From contig NVVD01000001.1 in assembly GCA_002402105.1 (NCBI GenBank), forward strand, positions 575,345 to 639,344: DNA of 64,000 nt. The letters run 5' to 3'. Position 1 is the stretch's first letter; the number at the start of each line of letters is the position of its first letter. A model generated the notes under the pieces. It worked only from the letters and a program-made list of their open reading frames with translations, was not told the origin of the DNA and made no database searches. The translations under genes and the position numbers were made by a program. Source of the stretch: Candidatus Cloacimonadota bacterium (lineage in GTDB: Bacteria; Muiribacteriota; UBA6191). This document shows positions 2,928-12,843 of this stretch, one piece after another.

Positions 2928-3213
2928 ATATACCTCGTAATATAGTTAAGATAAGTTTTGTTAATTTAGTAAGTTTTTTAAATAAATAAGTTTTATAGAT
3001 GAAAATAGTGGAGAAAGCTGACTTTTAAGATTTGGACTTTTTATTAAACTAAGGTTTTTTGGACAAGGCTATTTTAGATTTTGGTGCAAATTTTAAATCA
3101 ATCAAAAAAAAGATGAATCAGTTTAAACCATGGTAAACAAGCCAAAAATTAAAATCATTTCATACTTTTTATCTACTCAAATAAAAATAAAACCAAATAA
3201 ATAAAAATAAAGC

Positions 3214-3243
3214 TTGCATTGTGGCATTAGTCTATGGCATATT
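3214..3243 (+). promoter_or_regulatory. Candidate sigma70-type promoter of the large RNA
   Basis: TTGCAT and CATATT are separated by 18 bases. The predicted start point, ~3249, coincides with the 5' strand of the closing helix of the RNA (AGCTTT from 3248). An A/T-rich tract lies upstream, as for an UP-like element. Seen by eye only. Confidence 0.45.
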
Positions 3244-3886
3244 GATCAGCTTTCGAAAAACAACCCGAGAGCAACGAGCTAAAGACAAACCTTCTAGGAG
3301 GTCTGGACAAGCTCAAAAGGTTACACTGGGAGCCACTGACAAACTTGTTTGAAGGATGGCCAGAGTTGTGAGAACAAAACCTTGAAGATTAGTTTGAAAC
3401 CATGGTGACATGTTGGAAAATAAGATCAAGAAGGTACAGCTTAGAAGTAAGCTAAGATCACAATGGTAATTCCAGAGAAGCCAAAACAATTGTAGGAGAA
3501 ACCAGCTTAGTTAGAAGAGCAATCTTTTAATCGCTAGGGACTCATTAAGATCGAAACCGATGAAGCTTTGAGAAAAGGCAAGATCGGAATCATTTTTTGG
3601 AAACAAAGAACACAGCTTAGTGAGGAGAAATCTTCAAGAGTAAAGGTTGAAGTCGGAACTGGACTTAAGAGCGATGTGAGAGCAGAGTTTGTATGTCAAA
3701 GGATTTGATTTGGAATAGCCATAGGCTACTGAAAAAGTAGAAATGGTTTCGAAAGTGAGAATGCGAAACGCAAGTTAAGCAAGATTACCTGAAACGCCAG
3801 ATGAGAGGGAAACCGACATGAACCCAAAGAAAGGGTCAGCGTATACTGATAACCGGCCTTAGAAACTTGGCAACAAGGGTCTAATT

Positions 3887-4152
3887 TACAGATTGGTTTT
3901 AGGTGATAGCAATATTGTCTGAGACGGAGGCTTGATCTAAAGGAATCGTAAGATTCAAGAGGATTGGTTAAAGAAAGAGAACTTCGGAAACGAAGGGATC
4001 AGGAAGTCAGGAAACAGCTTTTAGAGGTGAAACTCTGGAGCGACTAGTAAGATCAGAAGAGGACGAGCAAGGCAACTTGTAAGTAGGTCTTAGCAAGAAA
4101 ACCAAAGAGTGGTAATAACTACAGATTGGGTTCTAGGTAACTAGATATTGTT
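3887..4152 (+). repeat. Internal sequence repeat within the large RNA
   Basis: A ~32-base element occurs twice: at 3887-3918 and at 4120-4152. Both begin TACAGATTGG, continue with a TTNTAGGT core and end ATATTGT. Each copy follows a hairpin capped by a GCAA loop (3866-3877 and 4068-4079), so a whole sub-domain appears duplicated. Only the second copy keeps a clean GTAA-capped hairpin. Confidence 0.65.
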
Positions 4153-4281
4153 AAAAATCAAATACTCTAAAGATAGGCTAAATCGTATGAGAGCTTGTTA
4201 AGTGTCAAAGCTTAGACATCTAAGAGATGGAAAAACGTTAGGGCTCCGACTTGATTTCGGGAACGCTTTTTAAAGCTTTAA

Positions 4282-4313
4282 AAAACTCTTAAACTTCGGT
4301 TTAAGAGTTTTTT
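4282..4313 (+). terminator. Intrinsic terminator of the large RNA
   Basis: ACTCTTAAAC and GTTTAAGAGT form a perfect 10-bp stem around a very stable TTCG tetraloop, followed by a T-run. Flanking A and T bases extend the pairing. Confidence 0.9.
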
Positions 4314-4341
4314 GTTTTATAAAAGAAAGGTTAACAAGTAT

Positions 4342-4370
4342 TTGATGGGCTAATAAATAGACAATATCTA
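4342..4370 (+). promoter_or_regulatory. Candidate promoter of the secreted-giant cassette
   Basis: TTGATG and TATCTA are separated by 17 bases. The predicted start, ~4377, leaves a leader of only about 15 bases before the ATG at 4393. It lies just after the terminator of the large RNA, so the cassette would need its own promoter here. Confidence 0.4.
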
Positions 4371-4392
4371 ATTTGATGGTTACAATTAATAC

Positions 4393-5268
4393 ATGAGAAA
4401 GTTGCCTAGCCTAAAAGTACAATTAGTTATTTTAATATTTATCAAAATATTTTTAGTTTCTACTCAAGCCCAAAAAATAGCATCTTTTGACCCATATTTT
4501 TTATTATTATTTCACCCTATGATGGCTAAGTTTGATCAATCAGTTCATCGTTTTCAAAAAGAAAACTTTAAAAATAAAATGACAAAAAAAGAATGGCACC
4601 TTCAAAGAGGAAAGCTACTTAAAGAGCTAAGAAACCAGAAAGAAAACATAAAAAGTAAAGATTTACAGAGTTTTTATGTACAATTGCCTAAATTAAAAAA
4701 AGATTTCCCATTAGAGAAGGACTACATAAGAGAATATACAAAGCTAAGATTAACTTACTTAGGCTTACATCACAAAAATAACTTAGAAAAAGACTTTTTA
4801 ATTTTTTATCAAAATGATAAGAAAAGTATTAGAATTTTTTCAAAAATGTGGCGTGATATTAGAGTAGCTATGTCTAAGATTCAAAAGAAAAAAAAATATT
4901 TATTTTTTTTACCAATTTATAAAGAAGTAAATAATGTGTCTAAAAAACCTTATAATCTTCAATTCATTGATAATAAAATGGGAATATCGAGCTATTTAGA
5001 TTTTACATTAAAATCGTCAAAAATTGATAATGAAAAATATATACGGTATAGGCTCAAAGATCATTTTAAACATATTACAAAAACTAGAGACCTTTTATAT
5101 CCTTTTATGAAATCAAAGTTTGTGCTTTATGGCTTAGAAGATGTTACAGACTTAATTCTTAAAGAAGTTTTAAAAGATAATCATTTAAATAAAGAGTTAG
5201 TTTTAATTGTAAGTAATGTTTATAAAACATGGCTAAATAAGCAAAATCAGATAGCCAAAGGTATTTAA
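4393..5268 (+). CDS. Periplasmic Skp/OmpH-like protein, first of a tandem pair
   Basis: 291 residues with a signal peptide (basic start, hydrophobic core, STQAQ cleavage region). The mature start FDPYFLLLFHPMMAKFD matches the start of the next gene's mature protein (LDMVYLFHPKMKNYN), so the two are diverged paralogues. The layout, a short beta-like strand with an HP motif followed by long Lys/Glu-rich helices, resembles the Skp/OmpH chaperone family but is longer and very lysine-rich. Skp proteins hold unfolded outer-membrane or secreted proteins in the periplasm. The stop overlaps the next ATG by one base (TAATG), so the genes are translationally coupled. A role as a dedicated chaperone for the giant protein two genes downstream is inferred from position. 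Recognition is weak; no signature residue is decisive. Confidence 0.6.
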   Translation: MRKLPSLKVQLVILIFIKIFLVSTQAQKIASFDPYFLLLFHPMMAKFDQSVHRFQKENFKNKMTKKEWHLQRGKLLKELRNQKENIKSKDLQSFYVQLPKLKKDFPLEKDYIREYTKLRLTYLGLHHKNNLEKDFLIFYQNDKKSIRIFSKMWRDIRVAMSKIQKKKKYLFFLPIYKEVNNVSKKPYNLQFIDNKMGISSYLDFTLKSSKIDNEKYIRYRLKDHFKHITKTRDLLYPFMKSKFVLYGLEDVTDLILKEVLKDNHLNKELVLIVSNVYKTWLNKQNQIAKGI

Positions 5269-6282: not shown

Positions 6283-9200
6283 ATGAAAAAGCTATTTTTT
6301 TATATGATTTTACTAAACCTATTAAATACTCCATTTGCAGATTTGACAACTCAAATTCAAGATAAAAACGGTGATGTTTATATACTTTTACGTCCAAAAA
6401 ATATACCCGCAAGCCCAGATAATACAGCAGGTTTATATAAGTTCACTCGAACCCAAGATTATGCAAGAAGTCGTTTATCTTTATCTAAAGATAGCAGAAT
6501 CAATTCTTATGAAGGTTTATCTGTTGATAAATTTGGGCATGTTAAATTATTTAGAAGTGAGTCTTTTGCTAATAAATCTGTGTGGGATTTATTAACTGTA
6601 GGAGCAATTTACCCAGGTTCTCCAACTTGTGAAAAACCCTTAGGTAAAGATAATTTTGATGCGGTTACTTCATATATTGGTGGTAAGGCGACTACTATAA
6701 CAAATTTACAAGCAATTAAATTTGGTTGGGTTTATATGATTAATACTGTAAGTGGTGATGAAGGATGGTTTTGTTTATATCCAGCGGGTACTCACTCTCG
6801 TGGTTATGATATTTCAGACCCAGGAGTTAGACCAACTCAAATGATAGCAAATCGTTTTGAAAGAACAGCTGTTAAAGCAGATTCATGGCTTACAGATGTG
6901 TATGACCATTCTAGAAAAGTAATTGGTATGGCAACGATTCCAGCAGGAGCTCAAGTATTTCCTCCAATTAGAGTAATGGGTGATCCAAGACGTCATCCAA
7001 ATATTAATGGTGTAGGTATTAGAGGTCAAGCTTGGGGACAACCTGTTGGTTTTTTAGCTCATGGTCGTGGACGGTTTATGATTGGTACAGATAAGGGTAC
7101 ATATACTGTTGGAGGTGGTTTTGCACCAGGAAAAGGAAGACGGTATGGTAATGCCTCACCAATGCTTGGTTGGTTTTATGCTAGAACCCCTGTTATTACA
7201 GGACAAGTAGCAAATGTAAGAAGAATAGATGATTTAACAATATCAAGATCAAAACTATTTATGGAAGAATATATAACAGCAGACGATAACCAAGTTTTGG
7301 TTAGTGCAGCTAATGACCCCGTTATTATGGCAACTTACAATTTAGTGGCTGGTAGTGATTATTATACTTCTTCAAATTGTGGCGGTTTTACTCAAACAGG
7401 TTTTTTACATTGTAGTGCAAATCCAATTGATACAGCCTATGCTTACTCTGAAAAAGTAGAATCTTACAATGATTGCTCTGATTTATGTGGTCAGTCTCCA
7501 TCAACTCCAATTATTTCTTCTACCGTAGTTAATAAAGGCAGAGCTAAGTTTTCATCTGCTGGTAATAACCAAGACTCTCAAAATGCCTATATTGTAAAGT
7601 CTTTTTATGCAACAGCAAACTCTCCACAACAAACAGGTGTATTTAAACTAGGCGTAGCTGATCCAATTTTAGGGTGGGATTCAACGGATAGTTTTACATA
7701 TAATGGTACAGGTAGTTTTTCAGAAACAAATGGAGGCGGTACAGTCGCTGTAATGGGTAATGATGATTTTGTTATAGCTTATAATTTTTCAGCAGCAGAA
7801 GGTGGGCTTGGTTATGCTTCTGCTATTCAAACTTCTAAACGAATCACTCCAACTGGTGATGATACAAAAGATTTTATTTATGTTTCTGATTTACCATATT
7901 CTCATTTTAATGTAGCAAGTTCTTTTTGGGGGACAGGAGGAATGGTTTGGTGGGCTATTGAAGTGGGTAAGGATTTAAAACTAAACTACGAACAATTTAA
8001 TCACTTCAGAAGCTCTACTCCGATTGTTAAAGATAAAATTTCAGTAGCAAACTCTACACCATTGGCAGCTTTTGGAGCTGATGGAGATAATTTTATTTAT
8101 TTATTACACTCAGGTGGTGGCAATTTAGTAGAAACAGAAAAAGATATAGATAGATTGTTTCCGTCTAAAACTATAAAAAGAATCAAAGAGCTTTGTGCAG
8201 AGCCAAACCGTATCAATGACTCTACTTGTGGTTCGGGGCCAGCATTTTATCCGACAAAGGGACATCATAGAATGACTATTAGAGTCAATCGCTTTGCGGG
8301 GTTAAAATTAGAAAAAATGGCTCCATTACCAGGAGCAAAACCAGTTAAGATTGGTATTTTACCATTAAAGGCTCCATCAGGTGCAGAATGCGTGGCAGAA
8401 TTTGCTTGGAAGGGTGGAGTTGGTGCAACAATTTTAGATGGAGACGTCGGAAAAATAGTAACTCCATGGATTTGTAGCCCACAAAATATAACAGAAACAA
8501 TAGATACAATTTTAGATAACTATTTAATTGAAATGGCTGTTATAAATGTAGCAAACCCCCCCCCTACTTCTAAGCTTAAAATTGATATTGTTGAGCCATC
8601 AAATATTATAAATACTAACTCAAGATACAATGAAGATGTAATGTATCAATTTAATATGGAAAACCCTCCAGTTTTTAACGGGCAGTTAGCTCAATTATCT
8701 TTGTCAACAGGTTCTGATTTATATGGAGATGTATTTTCTGTATCAAACTATGAAGAAGCAGGTATAGCTATTATTAAAAACTTATTACCTTCTGCTACAG
8801 TTGACTTATTTTATGATGACGATGGCCTGATGGGTACATTAGCACCTTCTTTTATTTATAAAGACCTCGATCCAGCAGACCCAATTATTTCTGCGAATGG
8901 CTCAAAAACAATTCGATATAGGTGGAGAGTTGTAGCAAAAACTCCTCCTCATTCTTTAAAAAACTATACAAATGTAGCAAGCGCTTCTGTTGATGCAAGT
9001 TGTCCTGACTTAGTAGTTGGTGGAATAGCCGGAGCCTACTTTTCTTCTTTGAGTGGTACAGAAAAAGGAGAACTTATATCTTCTGGTTTGGGTTTATCAA
9101 ATGCTGAGGGAGTTATGTTTGATTCTTGTTGGCTAGATTTTAATGAACCAAGCTCTTTAACTGGTCTTGGTTCTTATTTAAGTACTCCCAGTTATCCAGA

Positions 9201-12200
9201 AACTAATTTAAGCGCAATATTACTAGGAGGTCAGCAAGTAGTAGTACCAGCAACTTTAAACATGAAGTTTGATGATCCTGGTATTTATGAAGTACAATTA
9301 TATGTGGGTGGTTTACAATATAATGCAGATGATTTAACTTTTTTGAATGCGCCTCAATCAGTAGCTTTTCAACTATCTGTTACAAAAACAGTATCTATTA
9401 TTAATGTTCAAGCATTAGCAGCACAATCTGGAGATGAAATAAAAGATGTTGTAATTGCTAGTAATGACTTAGCAACAAGCTTAAATTTACGAGCAGGAAT
9501 GTACCCCTCTATTTCTAAGATGGAATCTGAGTTTACAAATAGCTCTAGCTTAGAAACAGCTCAAGGTCGATTTCCTGTAATGCCTATTTCTTATTATGAA
9601 AAAGGTGGTCAAGCAAATGTAGGTGGACCTTTAGTAGTCACCTATGAAAACCAACATATGCCTATGGTAGCAGAGGCAGAAATTCAATTTTTTAGGGTTC
9701 AAGATTTAAATTATTCAGCTCAAGAAAACTATGGTGTTAGTGATATTCAAACAAAATTTAAAGGTGTTGGGGCATGGGACTTTACATACCCAGGCGGAGG
9801 AGAGTTAAAATTTTCTGGACATACTTTTAGACCGATTGATAAAAGAACAAGTTTTCCTGCTAATTATTCGAGTGTTAAAGCATCACAAATAACAACAGTG
9901 ATAGCAGAACTAGGAGAATCAAGAAGAGGATATGATGCATCAGGTGATATGGAGACTGGTAAGGGTTGGGATACTTCAATAATTCCAAATGTATTATTAA
10001 ATACAGGTAATTTTGAAGATGCTCATCAAGGGACTTTAGCATCTCGTGAAAAATTTCCAGATATTACTGGTTTTAATAAAAATCTAGTTGAGCATCCTCA
10101 TAGTCTGTACTCTTGGTGGGAAATAAAGTATGCATGGTTTACAAGATATGTACAAGCTGACGGAACAGTGGTCAAAAAAATATTAAAAACAGGGAACTTA
10201 TCAGAAATTTTCGCATTAAATTTAATGGCTTCAAAAGATAGCGACTGGTTAAATGTAGTCAGAAACTTGGCACCAAATCCACTATTAGCAGAGGGTACAA
10301 GTGCTTTTAGTGATTCAAGCCCATTGATTAAAATAGTTGGTTCACCCAATGAACAAAAATTTAGAGTTAGAATACCCTTAATAAATCCAGGAGCATTATT
10401 AGCAGGTTCTGGTAATACAGAGTTAGATGCGCCACTAAAAAATTTAGATTCAAATACTAATTTTGATAATTTATATGCAAATATTCATCCTATGTCAATC
10501 AATGTACCTACAGAGCCTGGTTTAGTAGAGTTAGGTTTACAGCTTTTTTTCCCTACCATGAACTGGGAGGGTAGAGAAGAGTCTACTAATGTAAACGGCA
10601 ATATAAATGCAGGAGAGTTTTCTTACTATGATGCTGTTTATTGGGGGAATCAATCAGAGCTTTCTAATGGAGTACAGTTTGCTGATTTTACTAAAGTTTC
10701 TCATTCATTTGGAGGTGGAGGAAACTCTTTTAGCTCTTGGCCTAGGTTTGCACAACAAAGAACCAGTATATCTTTTGGGGGAGCAAAAGACCTAGAAGCA
10801 GAAAAAATGGGATTAATATTAGCCGATATAATTAGTGGTGGAGATTACAATGGTATTCCAGGAGGATTTTCATCTATTGGTGATACGACAACTTATCACC
10901 CACCAGGTGGTGTTGGAGAAAGAGATCATTTTACAGAAATTGTTTGTTTAGATTTAAAAAACCCAATTTTAACCCTTGAAAAAGGGCTAGCTTTAAATGC
11001 AGATACTGGTGGGGTATCTAATGAAGACATCGTACTTGAAGTGCAAGATAATAATCCATTTGCTCAATGGAAATCTTTTTCAGAAATTGGGGATAATACT
11101 TTACGAGAAAGGGTTCCAAGTTTAGTAAACTCTTATTATGAAATAGGTTCTGATCCAAGAAATTTAATAGGTATTGGTTTAAGAGGAAACAAAACCCCCG
11201 AAAGGGCTTATGGTTTTCCTCTTTCATTTACAAATTTAAATGCTAGTGGAGATATTGATAGAGATGATATAAAAAAAATGCCCCAATTTACGATGGGAGA
11301 TGATGCAAAGCCAATTACATTAAGTAATCTTGGTTATGCTTATAACCCGATGGATATGGAGTATAGTAACGCTGATTTTTATTTTCCAAATAAAAGTAGT
11401 ATGAGTTTTCCTGAAGATGGTTTATTTATAGAAAGAAAAGCAGCAACAGGAGCAAGTGCTTTCATTGGTGGAACAAATGGTACTGGTTCAGTAAATTCAA
11501 AATCAACAGATGAACAAGCGTGGTTTCATTCATGGAGTAGAACAAGTGCAGGTATAATAAATAGACATTTATTCTATCCACCTGCAAATGCACTTGCAGT
11601 AACAAAAGATACTGTAAGAACAAAAAATGTAGGTCAAACAGTTGATATAAATATGTGGATGATATCTCATATGATTGATAATAACGTTGCCCCTTATAAC
11701 CTAGAAGCAAAGCATTCAGATAACTTGTTTGTGTCGTATTTGACAGCTAATGGTACAGGCGACAATGATTATGAAGTATCAAATACAAATTGTTTGTCAG
11801 GCGAGTCTCCTTTTGATGAAACCCCAGATGATTGTTGGATTAAAACAAGATGGTTGATTCCAAAAGAGTCTTTACTAGCACCATATTTTGTTGACTCTAG
11901 TGCTTCTTGGAATGCACTTAATTTAAATATCTATGCAAAAGCAAGAGATGTTAGAGTCTCTACAGATCAACCAGATTACCTATCAAGTTCTTATAATACT
12001 ATTCCACCAAATTGGTTTAATGGGGTTTTTGGAAATTGGCCAAGTTATGACTTTGATTCCCCTTTTAGAAGAAGAGTTGCGGGAGAAAATGCTGATTTAG
12101 CAGGTGTCTTAGGTGCTGGGGTTATTGGTATCAAAAATAAAGTAGAGCGGGTTTTAGATAATACTTTACAAAGAAGTGCTACATTAATTTCAAGTTTAAC

Positions 12201-12843
12201 AGTAGGAGATAATGATGCTCCAAATGTTAGAGTCACTTTGTTTGATTACAAAAGTAGTTCGATGGTTTCATATGCTGTGATGGGGGCACAAGGCATTGAT
12301 GTTAATACACAAACAGATGCTGATGATGCATTTGTATTTCGTTCTAAAGACCCTAGAAATACAGCAACTTTATTTGATAGTGATGGCTTTTTTGATTCAA
12401 CAAATTGGACAAGTGCCAATCAAGAGGATATTAGAGTTAATCAATCAGCGTCGAGTGCTACAAATCAAAAGTTATATAGAATTCCAGAAGATGTGAGATT
12501 TAGAGTAGAGGTTCAAGCATCAGATAATAAAGTTTTAGAAAATATTACTATTAGTATTTCAGGCGGTCACTTTACAAAATTTACTCATCCAGATACAAAT
12601 ATTGAAAGAGTTGAAACAGAGGAACAATTTCCAGGATATAATGCTAGTAATAAAAGAATTTATAATCAATTCAGAAGAGGTGTGAAAGATCACTTTTATC
12701 CAAGAGCTGGTTATTATGATGTCTTAGAAGTGGTTGTAATTGATGGTGCAGCAGGTAACACTAGAAAAATCTATATTCCAATTGAAGTTATTCCACAAGA
12801 TTTACACTTTAGAAAGCTTGGAAGTGATCAAAGATTAAAATAA
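6283..12843 (+). CDS. Giant secreted protein (2186 residues), unknown family
   Basis: A signal peptide of about 19 residues (MKKLFFYMILLNLLNTPFAD) is followed by a very large, mostly beta-rich, Gly/Ser/Asn/Thr-rich exported protein. Scattered Cys residues (for example in SSNCGG and NDCSDLCGQ) suggest disulfides formed outside the cytoplasm. The last ~110 residues look like an Ig/PKD-type beta-sandwich ending EVVVIDGAAGNTRKIYIPIEV. I recognise no catalytic motif and no sorting tail. A run of nine C lies at codon ~758. The gene starts one base after the Skp-like pair, and its TAA is followed immediately by the ATG of the CDGSH-TIR gene. Likely role: cell-surface or released protein, possibly structural or adhesive; unproven. 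Confidence 0.8.
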   Translation: MKKLFFYMILLNLLNTPFADLTTQIQDKNGDVYILLRPKNIPASPDNTAGLYKFTRTQDYARSRLSLSKDSRINSYEGLSVDKFGHVKLFRSESFANKSVWDLLTVGAIYPGSPTCEKPLGKDNFDAVTSYIGGKATTITNLQAIKFGWVYMINTVSGDEGWFCLYPAGTHSRGYDISDPGVRPTQMIANRFERTAVKADSWLTDVYDHSRKVIGMATIPAGAQVFPPIRVMGDPRRHPNINGVGIRGQAWGQPVGFLAHGRGRFMIGTDKGTYTVGGGFAPGKGRRYGNASPMLGWFYARTPVITGQVANVRRIDDLTISRSKLFMEEYITADDNQVLVSAANDPVIMATYNLVAGSDYYTSSNCGGFTQTGFLHCSANPIDTAYAYSEKVESYNDCSDLCGQSPSTPIISSTVVNKGRAKFSSAGNNQDSQNAYIVKSFYATANSPQQTGVFKLGVADPILGWDSTDSFTYNGTGSFSETNGGGTVAVMGNDDFVIAYNFSAAEGGLGYASAIQTSKRITPTGDDTKDFIYVSDLPYSHFNVASSFWGTGGMVWWAIEVGKDLKLNYEQFNHFRSSTPIVKDKISVANSTPLAAFGADGDNFIYLLHSGGGNLVETEKDIDRLFPSKTIKRIKELCAEPNRINDSTCGSGPAFYPTKGHHRMTIRVNRFAGLKLEKMAPLPGAKPVKIGILPLKAPSGAECVAEFAWKGGVGATILDGDVGKIVTPWICSPQNITETIDTILDNYLIEMAVINVANPPPTSKLKIDIVEPSNIINTNSRYNEDVMYQFNMENPPVFNGQLAQLSLSTGSDLYGDVFSVSNYEEAGIAIIKNLLPSATVDLFYDDDGLMGTLAPSFIYKDLDPADPIISANGSKTIRYRWRVVAKTPPHSLKNYTNVASASVDASCPDLVVGGIAGAYFSSLSGTEKGELISSGLGLSNAEGVMFDSCWLDFNEPSSLTGLGSYLSTPSYPETNLSAILLGGQQVVVPATLNMKFDDPGIYEVQLYVGGLQYNADDLTFLNAPQSVAFQLSVTKTVSIINVQALAAQSGDEIKDVVIASNDLATSLNLRAGMYPSISKMESEFTNSSSLETAQGRFPVMPISYYEKGGQANVGGPLVVTYENQHMPMVAEAEIQFFRVQDLNYSAQENYGVSDIQTKFKGVGAWDFTYPGGGELKFSGHTFRPIDKRTSFPANYSSVKASQITTVIAELGESRRGYDASGDMETGKGWDTSIIPNVLLNTGNFEDAHQGTLASREKFPDITGFNKNLVEHPHSLYSWWEIKYAWFTRYVQADGTVVKKILKTGNLSEIFALNLMASKDSDWLNVVRNLAPNPLLAEGTSAFSDSSPLIKIVGSPNEQKFRVRIPLINPGALLAGSGNTELDAPLKNLDSNTNFDNLYANIHPMSINVPTEPGLVELGLQLFFPTMNWEGREESTNVNGNINAGEFSYYDAVYWGNQSELSNGVQFADFTKVSHSFGGGGNSFSSWPRFAQQRTSISFGGAKDLEAEKMGLILADIISGGDYNGIPGGFSSIGDTTTYHPPGGVGERDHFTEIVCLDLKNPILTLEKGLALNADTGGVSNEDIVLEVQDNNPFAQWKSFSEIGDNTLRERVPSLVNSYYEIGSDPRNLIGIGLRGNKTPERAYGFPLSFTNLNASGDIDRDDIKKMPQFTMGDDAKPITLSNLGYAYNPMDMEYSNADFYFPNKSSMSFPEDGLFIERKAATGASAFIGGTNGTGSVNSKSTDEQAWFHSWSRTSAGIINRHLFYPPANALAVTKDTVRTKNVGQTVDINMWMISHMIDNNVAPYNLEAKHSDNLFVSYLTANGTGDNDYEVSNTNCLSGESPFDETPDDCWIKTRWLIPKESLLAPYFVDSSASWNALNLNIYAKARDVRVSTDQPDYLSSSYNTIPPNWFNGVFGNWPSYDFDSPFRRRVAGENADLAGVLGAGVIGIKNKVERVLDNTLQRSATLISSLTVGDNDAPNVRVTLFDYKSSSMVSYAVMGAQGIDVNTQTDADDAFVFRSKDPRNTATLFDSDGFFDSTNWTSANQEDIRVNQSASSATNQKLYRIPEDVRFRVEVQASDNKVLENITISISGGHFTKFTHPDTNIERVETEEQFPGYNASNKRIYNQFRRGVKDHFYPRAGYYDVLEVVVIDGAAGNTRKIYIPIEVIPQDLHFRKLGSDQRLK
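8556..8564 (+). repeat. C9 homopolymer inside the giant-protein gene
   Basis: Nine consecutive C in a ~30% G+C sequence, read as AAC CCC CCC CCT (Asn-Pro-Pro-Pro). It is the longest G/C homopolymer I found in the window; the next are runs of six G. Slippage here would shift the frame after about 760 residues, as in phase-variable surface genes. Confidence 0.8.

Follow-up and report, generated by a model that had tools for sequence, protein, structure and literature searches.

A multicopy family of very large structured noncoding RNA genes from one family of a candidate bacterial phylum

Positions 3248 to 4313 of the window (the whole 64,000-nucleotide stretch of DNA analyzed here) hold, on the + strand, a structured noncoding RNA gene of about 1,066 nt (about 1,070 bases), and comparison with its relatives confirms it as a putative free-standing gene for a large structured RNA. 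The earlier note had proposed a large structured RNA gene outside the known classes at this place, and the proposal is supported: the sequence lacks an open reading frame (ORF) of appreciable length and any match in Rfam, it is present in many copies, and these relatives covary, with compensatory changes in the helices. We assign the gene to an apparently new family of structured noncoding RNAs, autonomous and very large, a class not previously described. Its predicted fold is as elaborate as those of the largest RNAs known from bacteria. It is the class that is new; large ornate RNAs as a broad category are already known.

Gene boundaries, copies and distribution

No ORF of at least 60 amino acids lies within 3248-4313, where the longest sense-strand ORF has 46 codons, and none was found to recur among the RNA copies, which bears out the description of this stretch as gene-free; a coding-gene reading was dropped because no ORF is conserved among the copies. 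As also claimed, the gene exceeds its AT-rich surroundings in G+C (about 0.40, against 0.21 to 0.30 in flanking DNA) and in purines (62%). Outside the RNA lie a gene for a Spondin_N protein upstream (2138-2863, - strand; Pfam PF06468), whose orthologue adjoins an empty site in a related genome (see below), and a gene without a Pfam match downstream (4393-5268, + strand). Further downstream, at 6283-12843 and after two small secreted-protein genes, the window encodes a 2186-aa protein with a cell-surface or pilus-associated look.

The promoter (3214-3243, + strand), inferred from the consensus of copies in two genera, comprises a -35 element TTGCAT (3214-3219), an 18-bp spacer and a -10 element CATATT (3238-3243), with an A-rich, UP-like stretch just upstream of the -35 element (3195-3212). 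Every copy whose 5' end could be read keeps this layout, with the consensus TTGAC[AT] (TTGCAT in some), N18, [CT]A-[TC]-[AT]-[CT]-T and A-rich DNA upstream, and in the alignment of full copies the second A and the last T of the -10-like hexamer are invariant; the promoter-like site reported previously is thus retained throughout. At the other end, an intrinsic terminator (4280-4313, + strand) consists of a 15-bp stem, a UUCG loop and a U-tract. Its stem changes between copies while pairing is kept (ACTCTTAAAC-TTCG-GTTTAAGAGT versus CCCCTCAAACTCACGTTTGAGGGG and others), with significantly covarying pairs at 4290:4303 and 4285:4308, in agreement with the TTCG-loop terminator that had been described. 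In the alignment of full copies, homology between copies begins at the A-rich stretch and promoter and ends at the U-tract of the terminator, and beyond these limits the flanks of the compared copies are generally unrelated. Some copies carry a further motif, GTAAACAAGCC..., about 60 to 110 bases upstream of the -35 element (window 3125-3185; upstream of 9098 in locus L039; upstream of 386 in locus L043), which is possibly an activator site or the trace of a duplication unit.

Homology searches, a check that the earlier note had suggested, returned paralogues in the same genome (G000), relatives in a second metagenome-assembled genome (MAG) of the same genus (G001; GenBank JAGSHD01, labeled Candidatus Cloacimonadota) and 5' halves in a sister genus. 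By DNA search, G000 holds at least 13 copies, a count made by 3' ends: six full-length copies, plus seven 3' and two 5' fragments at contig ends. Besides the window copy on contig C40, full-length copies lie on C7, C31, C22, C42 and C25 and are 77 to 92% identical to it; the fragments are on C42 (both ends), C36, C19, C48 (both ends), C35, C31 and C41. Many contigs end inside RNA copies because a long repeat of this kind breaks short-read assembly. G001 holds at least eight copies, and it is the only MAG in the genome_contigs set to match the nearly invariant 3' signature UAGGGCUCCGACUUGAUUUCGGGAA (4237-4263, + strand, from the alignment of full copies). All sequences of the family come from MAGs, with 16S only fragmentary in them; G000 is an estimated 8.6% contaminated, although its contig C31 carries both subfamilies of copies.

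A covariance model (R2) of a conserved core segment (3428-3552, + strand) made three matches (E of 2e-7 to 3e-4) in G003, a MAG from another genus of the same family. The three are 5' halves at contig ends, about 96% identical to one another and with unrelated flanks, and they show the promoter layout of the window family (TTGACA-N18-CATACT). One further 5' end from G003 and a pair from G002 have the promoter and RNA start in common, so that the sister-genus MAGs contribute the 5' ends of two (G002) and four (G003) copies. The 3' half was not found in either MAG by pattern search or by model R3, probably because collapsed repeat contigs were left unbinned. There were no other matches among 382 genomes from 324 genera under stricter filters, none in other genomes of the phylum under permissive filters, none in 50,697 phage records and the plasmid records in distant mode, and none in viral_contigs to the 3' signature or two gapped core patterns. 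Five viral_contigs stretches picked up by a loose gapped pattern did not score with model R2, and a match in G038 (22 bits, E of 0.18) to model R1, built on a conserved central block that includes the invariant CCCAAAGAAAGGGUCAGCGUA (3752-3890, + strand), was taken as chance. In the data searched, the RNA family appears limited to a single family within a candidate phylum.

Consensus fold and relation to known RNA classes

The sense strand, folded without the terminator, has a z score of -6.5 relative to dinucleotide shuffles, against -2.1 for the antisense strand and about 0 for two coding controls. We built a consensus fold of about 320 pairs on ten nearly full copies from two MAGs of one genus (RNAalifold on all 25 rows, fragments included, was uninformative owing to gaps). 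As a null, we simulated 30 alignments along the tree, keeping the substitutions in each column the same, and refolded each of them, which avoids the circularity of testing a fold on its own source alignment. Two-sided compensatory changes occur at 90 pairs, versus 22 ± 4 in this tree-aware null (standard deviation of 4.4, maximum of 30), and the RNAalifold consensus energy is -442, versus -310 ± 8. Individually significant covariation is seen in 12 of 323 pairs, spread across about ten helices, the number being small because the sequences are so few. The suggested covariation test on homologues thus places compensatory change far above the phylogenetic null, as is characteristic of structured noncoding RNA, and indicates that the RNA structure is under selection. 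About a dozen consensus hairpins bear GNRA loops, more than the minimum of five that had been counted, and several vary within GNRA only: one loop is GCAA, GTGA, GCGA or GTAA, and another GAAA, GAGA, GTAA, GCAA or GTGA, depending on the copy.

The 5' domain (3319-3482, + strand) shows compensatory changes both within the genus and between genera, the latter including ACCUU:AAGGU to GCCAU:AUGGC and AGCUUA-GAAG-UAAGCU to UCCUUA-GAAG-UAAGGA. It is closed by helices 3319-3322:3479-3482 and 3326-3331:3470-3475 and contains the inner helices 3365-3371:3458-3464, 3379-3383:3431-3435 and 3387-3394:3419-3427 and a hairpin at 3438-3443:3448-3453. A peripheral hairpin with a GNRA loop (3893-3928, + strand) follows the central block; paralogues C31 (locus L045, within 8001-9159) and C22 (locus L046, within 1021-2175) have a long hairpin in place of its tetraloop, an insertion of ~45 nt that is nearly identical in the two and sits at about window 3908-3913. 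The 3' domain (4040-4186, + strand) is a multihelix branch with three hairpins that have GNRA or A-rich loops; its closing helix, 4040-4054:4172-4186, shows two-sided compensatory changes in 7 of 12 pairs, and pairs 4045:4180, 4068:4079 and 4111:4120 covary significantly. The strongest covariation is in a hypervariable hairpin at 4198-4215 (+ strand), where pairs 4203:4210 and 4204:4209 score above every null replicate.

According to the earlier note, three long-range helices join the two ends of the RNA. That the end segments are complementary holds in all nine full copies; the three helices are only partly supported, two of them being unproven, and one of these two, GGAGCC:GGCUCC, conflicts with the covarying local helix 3326-3331:3470-3475. 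The outermost, P1 (3248-3259 with about 4267-4277, + strand), has a duplex energy of -7 to -9 kcal/mol in 9 of 9 full copies, which represent three sequence types, and its arms show half-compensatory changes only. In the candidate helix P2, CCCGAGA (3264-3270, + strand) pairs with UUUCGGG (4255-4261, + strand); the pairing is strictly conserved, with a predicted probability above 0.75 in six of the nine copies. P2 does not covary among the copies, and covariation is silent on long-range closure because both arms are nearly invariant. The consensus fold favors local hairpins that compete with long-range closure, and closure by the outermost helices is a plausible prediction.

With cmscan, Rfam 15 gave no match over the whole window at gathering thresholds, and for 3150-4400 at E values up to 10, the check that had been proposed, GOLLD, ROOL, OLE and HEARO were all unlisted. 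The weak matches at E up to 10 were dismissed as chance and were mostly driven by the terminator (L10_leader reached 25 bits, below its cut-off of 44). The usual neighbors of GOLLD, ROOL and HEARO are likewise missing near the copies, as the earlier note had observed for the window: the 30 neighboring proteins scanned include no phage family and no IscB-type domain, and the window has no tRNA. The RNA thus appears to be distinct from GOLLD, ROOL, OLE and HEARO.

For comparison, ROOL is about half the length of the new RNA, and OLE is a single-copy RNA of Firmicutes extremophiles. Like rRNA operons, the new RNA has multiple dispersed copies, a UP-like element, a near-consensus -35 element and within-genome homogenization; it differs in having no rRNA similarity in Rfam and, among the genomes searched, in occurring in a single bacterial family. 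It shares its very large size and its free-standing, multidomain form with GOLLD, an ornate noncoding RNA with many representatives over 800 nt (PMC12286853). GOLLD is carried by phages and prophages, often close to tRNA islands, while the new RNA has ordinary chromosomal neighbors and at least 13 dispersed copies. It is large and ornate like ROOL, which has no known protein partner and forms RNA-only nanocages, and it is a large structured bacterial RNA like OLE, which forms an RNA-only dimer; OLE dimers and the cages of ROOL and GOLLD are all RNA-only complexes (PMC12286853). It differs from ROOL, which is phage or prophage encoded, in having no sequence match to it, and from OLE, which has the dedicated partners OapA and OapC, in having no match to the OLE model.

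Chromosomal settings and evolution of the copies

The genes beside the copies are ordinary and specific to each copy, encoding Spondin_N, an FMN oxidoreductase, glycosyltransferases, a response regulator, an ECF sigma factor, RtcR, a transporter and others; a reading based on a shared neighbor gene or an operon leader was dropped, as neighbors differ between copies. Just upstream of copy C22 (L046, upstream of 2175), a fragment similar to an addiction-module antitoxin gene precedes pieces of a DDE transposase.

Some loci do correspond between the two species of the genus. The copy at the end of C31 in G000 (C31b) and a copy on C11 in G001 have several downstream genes in common, and both C35 in G000 and the start of C4 in G001 are followed by rtcR-rtcB-rtcA (rtcR assigned by Pfam, rtcB and rtcA named from sequence alone). 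This RNA-repair cluster downstream of one RNA copy in both species (L053, 2598-6714; L042, 798-4918) concerns one locus of many and is perhaps a coincidence. RNA copies at L048 and L043 have the same flanking genes in the two species, though on a different side and in a different orientation, which suggests rearrangement by recombination between copies.

The copies themselves follow their genomes. Identity between C31b and C42, a paralogue in its own genome, is 94%, but with the G001 copy at the corresponding position it is 64% (about 180 nt); for the C35 copy the values are 99% with C25 and 80% with its counterpart (about 110 nt). Copies closer to paralogues in their own genome than to positional counterparts imply concerted evolution, a process familiar from rRNA operons. 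In G001, orthologues of the genes that flank the window copy are adjacent and the RNA is absent, with homologous DNA resuming at about window 4317, just past the terminator; this empty orthologous site implies gain or loss of copies over time.

Possible roles of the RNA

We lean toward a stable, abundant structural RNA whose output would be set by gene dosage, as with rRNA. Each copy looks like a complete transcription unit, with a sigma-70-type promoter, ~1.07 kb of RNA and an intrinsic terminator, alone between unrelated genes, and free-standing units without a constant neighbor argue for a trans-acting RNA. Many homogenized copies with near-consensus promoters point to a need for large quantities of one product, which rrn-like promoters would express strongly. 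A compact tertiary fold is suggested by the dozens of helices and the dozen or so GNRA loops, on the basis of the A-minor chemistry of such loops, whose tertiary contacts may draw the RNA into a globular particle. The RNA would then act as a scaffold, a self-assembled RNA complex or an RNP, and not as a cis-regulator or antisense RNA. Copy number, promoter form and loop types are what we draw on for abundance, stability and self-assembly.

A dispersed nonautonomous mobile element, copied to new sites by machinery encoded elsewhere and with a structure that serves its own replication, would also explain the empty G001 site, where homology resumes right after the terminator, and it accords with the precise boundaries, unrelated flanks and number (at least 13) of the copies. 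We nevertheless regard it as unlikely, since the copies tested lack the hallmarks of transposable elements: no terminal inverted repeats surround the window copy, target-site duplication is not clearly above chance in six copies tested, and no linked recombinase or reverse transcriptase is shared among the copies (a single DDE transposase gene lies near one copy only). Some copies, moreover, occupy gene neighborhoods conserved between species, and the promoter lies inside the unit, unlike in simple retroposition of a transcript. The two readings overlap, in that a housekeeping RNA gene may also relocate.

A protein-titrating regulatory or decoy RNA in amplified copies, in the manner of CsrB or 6S RNA, would share the free-standing, multicopy, trans-acting layout, yet the loops are GNRA or UUCG rather than the repeated GGA loops of CsrB-type RNAs, no sRNA class in Rfam is similar, and the complexity is far above that of known decoys, all of which makes this account improbable. 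Size and an ornate multidomain fold would equally suit a catalytic RNA, an intron relative or the guide of an RNA-guided nuclease (a group II intron fragment or a HEARO/OMEGA-like guide); we give this very little credence, given that neither introns nor HEARO matched in Rfam up to an E value of 10, that the RNA has its own promoter and terminator, and that IscB, TnpB and intron-encoded proteins are absent among the 30 neighboring proteins scanned.

If the RNA is structural, its nearest functional analogy is perhaps with the ornate self-assembling RNAs, that is, OLE dimers and the cages of ROOL and GOLLD. We advance more tentatively, as a conjecture we think somewhat doubtful, that it represents a second kilobase-scale, high-dosage chromosomal RNA gene family besides rRNA, made up of homogenized, relocatable units and yielding a massively abundant, self-assembling, nonphage particle that would belong to the ordinary makeup of the cell in this lineage. 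To our knowledge, very few classes of bacterial RNA come close to 1 kb. The best studied of them, OLE, ROOL and GOLLD, proved to form RNA-only complexes, and we know of no precedent outside rRNA for a class in at least 13 dispersed, homogenized copies per genome. The boundaries, consensus fold, paralogues and sister-genus homologues define the family well enough for cryo-EM and probing. The multicopy state hints at a cellular requirement for an RNA machine in large amounts, and, if that is true, the family would offer a direct test of whether giant RNA assemblies are no more than curiosities of phages or can be regular components of cells.
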